A stretch of 41,479 nt of DNA from a bacterium. GTDB lineage: Bacteria; Armatimonadota; Chthonomonadetes; Chthonomonadales; Chthonomonadaceae. Within the stretch, counting starts at the first letter, position 1. Each line of letters opens with the position of its first letter. The DNA lies in the NCBI GenBank assembly GCA_021805395.1, contig JAJZFJ010000069.1, positions 1 to 41,479 of the forward strand, given 5' to 3'. Made by a program: the position numbers and the translations under genes. Under the pieces are notes generated by a model that worked only from the letters and a program-made list of their open reading frames with translations, made no database searches and was not told the DNA's origin. Below are positions 4,952 through 5,571 of this stretch, piece after piece.

Positions 4952-5017
4952 ATCCTCCCCTCTTTCACTACTAGTACGAATAATATATTGCTGCTGTATA
5001 TTCTTTGAAAAAAACCC

Positions 5018-5045
5018 TAAAGAAGATTTATGAAGTTGCCAATAA
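5018..5045 (+). promoter_or_regulatory. Sigma-28 (FliA)-like promoter for flgM
   Basis: TAAA at 5018-5021 and GCCAATAA at 5038-5045 are separated by 16 bases. The flagellar sigma-28 consensus is TAAA, 15 bases, GCCGATAA, so the -10 box matches 7 of 8 with spacing one base long. Transcription would begin about 5052-5055, directly at the 5' edge of the riboswitch. A FliA promoter on flgM is common in flagellated bacteria. Confidence 0.45.
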
Positions 5046-5055
5046 TAATCTTACA

Positions 5056-5155
5056 GGGAGATGATAAAGGCAAACTCATGGAAATGTGAGGGCGCAAAGC
5101 TATGGGCCTAAGGGAATGCCAAGAAGTACATTCCGATGGCTGCCAGGTTCCCTTC
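5056..5155 (+). promoter_or_regulatory. Cyclic-di-GMP-I riboswitch (GEMM-I)
   Basis: The conserved GEMM-I core is present in order: GGCAAAC, a helix closed by a GAAA tetraloop (5069-5090), GGGCGCAAAGC, then GGGCCTAA, a second hairpin (ggaatg/cattcc, 5113-5134) and GATGGCTGCCAGGTT. The tetraloop, its receptor region (CCTAA facing GATGG) and the GCAAAGC joining segment are the hallmark positions of this aptamer, which binds bis-(3'-5')-cyclic dimeric GMP. P1 may form between gggag near 5056 and the ttccc that follows CCAGG. The ligand is the second messenger for motile-to-sessile switching, which fits the flgM gene downstream. No terminator with a U tract lies between aptamer and gene, so control is more likely at translation. 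Confidence 0.88.
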
Positions 5156-5199
5156 CTTGACAACTGGATTGCCTGTAAAGAGACAGAGCATTCTATCGC

Positions 5200-5218
5200 G
5201 TCAGGAGGTACTCAAATG
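5200..5218 (+). promoter_or_regulatory. Strong ribosome binding site of flgM with a possible upstream anti-SD
   Basis: The sequence gtcaggagg (5200-5208) sits seven bases before the ATG at 5216 and fixes that start; the open frame upstream runs back through the riboswitch. The segment ccttccttgac at 5151-5161, at the 3' edge of the aptamer, could pair with gtcaggagg (with a bulge), giving a route by which ligand binding changes access of ribosomes. The pairing is inferred by eye. Confidence 0.5.
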
Positions 5219-5527
5219 CAGATATCAATGAATGAAGTAAGAAGATTACTTTCATACAGTACAGAAGGAAATTCAAAACCTTCACTCGAAGTCAACTCAA
5301 GTGTAAGTCAACAGAGTAGTGGATCACCCAGTGCAGTGGTTGACATTTCTACCACGTCTCAAGACATACAAACTGTTAAACGTGAGCTAAGTCGCGTCTC
5401 TGATGTTCGTGAGGAGCGAGTAAATGCCTTACGACAACAAATCGCCAATGGAACCTACAATGTTCCTTCAAGTGATATCGCCGATTTGATGATTCGACGC
5501 ACATTGGCAGACAATACTCAGGGATAG
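5216..5527 (+). CDS. flgM: Anti-sigma-28 factor FlgM
   Basis: A 103-aa protein with a disordered Ser/Gln-rich N-terminal half and the FlgM C-terminal signature: the segment REERVNALRQQIANGTYNV followed by SSDIADLMIRR. In the family this region wraps around sigma-28 (FliA) and keeps it off RNA polymerase until the flagellar hook-basal body is complete and FlgM is exported. The N-terminus MQISMNEV is also typical of the family. Translation from the ATG at 5216 is set by a strong Shine-Dalgarno; the frame upstream overlaps the riboswitch and is not coding. It is the only flagellar gene in the window, transcribed alone between a sigma-28-like promoter and a terminator. Regulation by c-di-GMP is inferred from the riboswitch. 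Confidence 0.85.
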   Translation: MQISMNEVRRLLSYSTEGNSKPSLEVNSSVSQQSSGSPSAVVDISTTSQDIQTVKRELSRVSDVREERVNALRQQIANGTYNVPSSDIADLMIRRTLADNTQG

Positions 5528-5535
5528 ACAATAGA

Positions 5536-5571
5536 TTAAAAGAGGAGCTTTTAAAGGCTCCTCTTTTTTGT
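5536..5571 (+). terminator. Rho-independent terminator after flgM
   Basis: The arms aaagaggagc and gctcctcttt form a 10-bp stem around a ttttaaag loop, followed by tttttg. It lies between the convergent flgM and parB genes, and because the left side is A-rich it can act in both directions. Confidence 0.85.

Follow-up and report, generated by a model that had tools for sequence, protein, structure and literature searches.

c-di-GMP is a bacterial 'settle down' signal, and high levels of it usually go with low motility. FlgM is the antagonist, or brake, of the motility sigma factor sigma-28, and the control of flgM by sigma-28 is itself already known. The known RNA-based control of flagellar genes by c-di-GMP acts on an early operon: Cd1, the GEMM-I riboswitch of the Clostridioides difficile flgB operon, is an OFF switch that works by termination in this early flagellar operon, behind a sigma-A promoter, and flgM of the same species is SigD-dependent (PMC5386303). 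In the enteric FlgM/sigma-28 checkpoint, FlgM keeps sigma-28 inactive and translation of flgM is controlled by RNA, as would be the case at the locus described here; the enteric system differs in that trans-acting small RNAs, OmrA and OmrB, repress flgM translation, and the enteric flgM leader, unlike that of the window, holds no c-di-GMP sensor (PMC7602753). Among the open-licence papers searched, no description of a c-di-GMP riboswitch before flgM was found.

Here, we analyse a stretch of 41,479 nucleotides (the window) from a member of the Chthonomonadaceae, phylum Armatimonadota, in which flgM appears to be preceded by such an element. In our reading, to which we give a probability of a little over three in four, a c-di-GMP ON riboswitch would govern translation of flgM on a transcript started by sigma-28. 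The aptamer class and the target are both known, and the wiring is apparently new.

Aptamer, gene and promoter in the window

The first-pass annotation had placed a GEMM-I aptamer between a sigma-28-type promoter and flgM, in an interval (5018-5571) that also covers the terminator at 5538-5570, and had proposed a covariance-model search with RF01051 and a search of related genomes for the same order as checks. The first of these bears the aptamer out: the single Rfam match in the whole window is to RF01051 (GEMM-I, c-di-GMP-I), at 5059-5155 on the + strand, and it covers the model at full length (1-87/87) with 70.3 bits (E 6.3e-12), twice the gathering score of 35. It is also the sole RF01051 match in the 4.16 Mb genome. 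According to the RF01051 alignment, the aptamer core consists of GGCAAAC, a GAAA tetraloop (5081-5084, +), GGCGCAAAG and GGGCCUAAGG; the core expected of the c-di-GMP-I class is a GNRA-type tetraloop hairpin together with GGCAAAC / CGCAAA / CUAA, and both are found in the window. The ligand-specifying position, the first base of GGCAAAC (5069, +), is a G, the c-di-GMP type, and GGCAAA with G at this position is present in the window and in 18/18 class leaders. A change from G to A at this position of GEMM-I aptamers permits binding of cGAMP (PMC6274999). The window aptamer is thus placed by its sequence among those predicted to bind c-di-GMP.

In the Rfam structure, helix P1 is formed by the flanking GAUG:CGUC, for which 95.6% of cells are paired across 17 class leaders; no covariation of P1 could be demonstrated across these leaders, because the nearly invariant helix hardly varies within the class. 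In the window, this register reads GAUG (5060-5063) : CUUC (5152-5155, +) with one of the four pairs mismatched (U-U), and a six-pair alternative is present, in which the 5' strand AGGGAG (5055-5060, +) pairs with 5152-5157 (six possible pairs, folded). An assignment of P1 to GGCAA of the core and UUGCC at the aptamer end was dropped, as the Rfam structure pairs the GC of GGCAAAC with the GC of GACGCAAA.

The downstream gene (5216-5527, +), which starts with ATG at 5216 and has AGGAGG at 5203-5208, encodes a protein of 103 amino acids that matches PF04316 with 65.5 bits (cut-off 25 bits; residues 42-93, with the C-terminal region present) and the NCBIfam model TIGR03824 with 57.8 bits (cut-off 40.75 bits), so that its earlier naming as the anti-sigma-28 factor gene flgM holds. 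The protein also weakly matches the solved FlgM chain 9wsf_B (E 9e-5), and the genome encodes no other FlgM. flgM forms a single-gene unit flanked by an alcohol-dehydrogenase-like gene and parB, and is followed by an intrinsic terminator (5538-5570, +; 13-pair stem, -17.8 kcal/mol, then a T run) that is common to flgM and the convergent parB, a - strand terminator being predicted there as well. The genome encodes two FliA-type sigma factors above the TIGR02479 cut-off (240 and 218.7 bits) and has 5 flagellin matches and 16 GGDEF domains, a gene content with which it should be able to use a c-di-GMP/FlgM/sigma-28 circuit.

The sigma-28 boxes are TAAA - 15/16 - GCCGATAA, and TAAA-N16-GCCAATAA at 5018-5045 (+) fits them. 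In its full form the sigma-28-type promoter is CCCTAAAG (5015-5022)-N15-GCCAATAAT (5038-5046), on the + strand, and matches 16/17 positions of a motif that is the consensus common to the relatives' flgM leaders; none of 200 shuffles reached its score (p<0.005), and as a motif the promoter therefore stands as first described. Transcription would start at about 5052-5055. The motif CCCTAAAG - about 15 - GCCGATAAT is found at 12 or more of the 17 positions in 62/68 flgM leaders, and in 58/68 it outscores 99% of shuffles (p<0.01), statistics that are partly circular because the consensus was written after the leaders were seen, and that, as with all p-values here, count related genomes as independent. 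Its distance to the aptamer is similar among flgM leaders, and both boxes are spaced 15-16 in most of them. About 10 of the class's 23 flagellin genes, one belonging to this genome, have the same motif in front, and a shorter form is found in this genome 55 bases upstream of a chemotaxis-receptor-like gene, which fits sigma-28. A sigma-28 regulon drawn from the pattern alone was dropped: CTAAA-N15-18-CCNATAA has 12 matches in the whole genome vs 10 for the reversed control, a count that proves nothing, so that support for sigma-28 is taken from leader conservation and from the flagellin genes, and from these we infer a sigma-28-dependent flgM promoter. In six flagellin leaders of the class (L210, L211, L213, L215, L219 and L232), about 120-180 bases separate a sigma-28-type motif from the start codon, which points to long flagellin leaders.

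Distribution in the class and phylum

Among the 31 genomes of the class, flagellin was found in 19, FliA above the cut-off in 19 and FlgM in 18, and in all 18 FlgM-bearing genomes an RF01051 aptamer is located directly upstream of flgM on the same strand; nearly all have the flgM start about 52-64 bases 3' of this aptamer. Of the 291 genomes of the phylum, 215 have FlgM and 173 an RF01051 match, and among the matches listed the aptamer-flgM pair occurs at near-constant distance in 50 genomes. A scan of forty additional flgM upstream regions with every model of the clan brought in 26 further genomes, all with the aptamer on the correct strand and most through c-di-GMP-I-GGC or -UAU models, below gathering scores, with E below 1e-3. 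The search of relatives thus recovered the proposed aptamer-flgM order not only in 18/18 class genomes with flgM, but in 76 or more genomes across the phylum, with the shared promoter motif in front in nearly every case. In 14 of the 40 scanned regions no convincing aptamer was found, namely in eleven genomes (G202 twice) and at the second flgM of G005 and G039 (one of the 14, in G072, has a weak match, E 0.21), and families f36-f45 have FlgM and lack an aptamer among the matches listed; the arrangement is therefore common in the phylum without being universal. Among eleven FlgM loci of other phyla (Bacillus/Neobacillus, Selenomonadales, Nitrospinae and Thiotrichales, all with distant FlgM proteins), none has an aptamer adjoining flgM, and at two Neobacillus loci an aptamer lies about 4 kb off, on the opposite strand. 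Chance cannot produce the phylum-wide joint conservation of promoter, aptamer and flgM, conservation of the aptamer implies use, and the order promoter-sensor-brake, found in 76 or more relatives, suggests a conserved circuit.

Some genomes depart from this pattern. G020, a 99% complete class member, has flagellins and two FliA-type sigma factors, with no FlgM or aptamer detected; brake and sensor may have been lost together, or its FlgM may be too diverged for detection. The second FlgM of G005 (G005:C7:1300-1464; L047, L154) has no riboswitch; a second FliA, with a high score (G005:C7:12598-13272), is encoded at a distance of about 11 kb, and the two probably belong to a flagellar system of their own. 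The riboswitch-flgM unit of G071 directly follows a gene for selenocysteine tRNA (80 bits; L123:459-548, -); in L121 and L122, from two further f14 genomes, the tRNA gene at that place is an ordinary one and is encoded on the opposite strand.

Aptamers are also found at other genes. In L008, L022 and L025 (G015:C177, G013:C457 and G014:C110), class aptamers lie just before genes that were judged by eye to encode secreted S8 (subtilisin-like) protease-like proteins, in tandem pairs in two of the three genomes. In L020 and L024 (G027:C60 and G006:C206), they precede genes for proteins that are exported and terminate in a PEP-CTERM-like anchor, possibly surface or matrix proteins. Three tandem aptamers (L017, L023 and L029; G009:C283:2919-3182) are found in a genome that has neither flagellin nor FlgM.

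Expression platforms and the sign of control

In the window, the switching strand CUUCCUUGAC (5152-5161, +) has two possible partners. Its 5' part forms the 3' side of P1, and as a whole it is the anti-Shine-Dalgarno (anti-SD) strand, which pairs with the flgM Shine-Dalgarno (SD) region GUCAGGAGG (5200-5208, +) in a duplex of -9.3 kcal/mol. P1 and the anti-SD helix are mutually exclusive, as both need 5152-5157, and since the P1 3' strand doubles as the anti-SD strand, a ligand-stabilised P1 should release the ribosome site. In folding computed without ligand energy or cotranscriptional kinetics, the unpaired probability per base of the window SD is 0.02-0.39 in the free fold vs 0.45-0.85 with the aptamer and P1 forced, and occupying the P1 3' strand raises its mean from 0.13 to 0.35. 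With this strand masked, SD accessibility also rose in the class families f1 (0.12 to 0.36), f2 (0.23 to 0.65) and f3 (0.17 to 0.55); control masks on other stretches had little effect in these families (0.14-0.19). The window SD was opened equally by 4/16 control masks, and in families f15 and f9 the masking test showed no effect. The window's own anti-SD duplex is no stronger than those of shuffles (p 0.19), so that the mechanism proposed for the window leans on its relatives: across 45 translational leaders, pairing of the leader's own anti-SD with its SD is stronger than pairing between families (-16.3 vs -13.5 kcal/mol, p 2e-6), and in some leaders the SD region duplicates the P1 5' strand exactly, L126 reading GAGGCAG at both. 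A hairpin at 5165-5195 (+) forms in free and constrained folds; it has no U-tract, nor do other class leaders at this position, and it is therefore not an intrinsic terminator. A terminator was dropped as the platform of the window on this ground and because the core-complement motif GUUUGCC occurs in none of the translational leaders.

GUUUGCC, the complement of the aptamer core GGCAAAC, characterizes a different set of leaders. In the spacers of families f31-f35 it is followed by a U-tract, exact or at most 2 bases off, in 18/20 leaders, and in the free RNA of the four f31-f35 leaders that were folded, the core pairs with GUUUGCC with a probability near 1, in a stem that ends in the U-tract. 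As this terminator uses the ligand-binding core as its 5' strand, ligand binding must oppose termination. The two platforms are unlike and both read as ON, and they make a common prediction, that c-di-GMP raises FlgM; we infer the same sign, ON for FlgM, for the window, a direction of control that the first-pass annotation had left open. It is also rather likely, though we hold this with less confidence than the reading of the window itself, that much of the phylum links c-di-GMP to flagella through a riboswitch of the anti-sigma-28 gene, in which aptamer, promoter and target stayed constant and the platform was switched between translational and transcriptional with the ON sign kept.

An OFF switch, in which c-di-GMP would lower FlgM and thereby free sigma-28 (e.g. 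for late flagellar parts or chemoreceptors at high signal), seems unlikely to us. It would run against the generally known link between high c-di-GMP and low motility, and neither platform agrees with it, the strand that hides the SD in the window and the class being the one occupied by P1, and the f31-f35 terminator being one that a bound core must oppose. In its favour are the modest platform signal of the window taken alone and the near identity of GEMM-I aptamers in ON and OFF switches (PMC9262584).

It is likewise improbable that the aptamer is real and the promoter depends on the housekeeping or another sigma factor, which would leave no self-braking loop. The genome-wide pattern count given above would agree with this, as would two class leaders that read CCTATAAT, near the -10 box of the housekeeping factor, and ten further sigma-factor matches in the genome, all scoring lower than the FliA pair; yet both sigma-28 boxes keep their 15-16 spacing in most leaders, the motif recurs before flagellin genes and the chemoreceptor-like gene, and a sigma-70 scan yields weak matches only. 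We consider it very improbable that the element is decayed or re-tuned, having lost regulation or sensing, for example, 3',3'-cGAMP in place of c-di-GMP. The window aptamer does score toward the low end among class aptamers and its P1 is unusual in the U-U mismatch, but the base that decides ligand choice is the G of c-di-GMP binders and not the A that admits cGAMP (PMC6274999), the score is twice the gathering score, and conservation throughout the phylum implies use.

The proposed circuit and described riboswitches

In the ON circuit that we favour, the promoter at 5015-5046 would be used by sigma-28 (FliA) to transcribe flgM. As long as c-di-GMP is absent, 5152-5161 would pair with the SD at 5200-5208, little FlgM would be made and sigma-28 would remain active. 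Once c-di-GMP is bound, the stabilised P1 would capture 5152-5157 and set the SD free; FlgM would then be produced and bind sigma-28, turning off flagellin and chemotaxis genes and also the promoter of flgM itself. If this is true, the brake on the motility sigma factor is a product of that factor itself, with its strength set by c-di-GMP: a negative-feedback circuit with a small-molecule set point. The relatives would, in addition, offer a set of natural leaders that join one aptamer to different output devices of the same sign.

The element shares features with several described riboswitches. Like the pilM riboswitch of Geobacter metallireducens, it has a GEMM-I type aptamer and is, by our prediction, ON, and in the f31-f35 leaders formation of the predicted terminator would rule out the aptamer fold and use up ligand-binding bases, as happens in pilM; the pilM riboswitch differs in that it senses cGAMP and controls a pilus gene (PMC9262584). 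With the Vc2 GEMM-I riboswitch of Vibrio cholerae it would share a translational platform in which P1 stability is decisive, whereas Vc2 is described as translational OFF and is located upstream of a tfoX homologue, with no anti-sigma factor involved (PMC9262584, PMC12564702). The likeness to Cd1 lies in a GEMM-I aptamer in a flagellar leader and, by our prediction, in the outcome, high c-di-GMP leading to less motility and less activity of a sigma-28-type factor (SigD in C. difficile; PMC5386303). Unlike Cd1, the window aptamer belongs to the gene of an anti-sigma factor with a sigma-28-type promoter in front, and its predicted sign is ON. In this poorly studied phylum, and in every FlgM-bearing genome of the class, the signal apparently acts on the protein that restrains the late-stage sigma factor.
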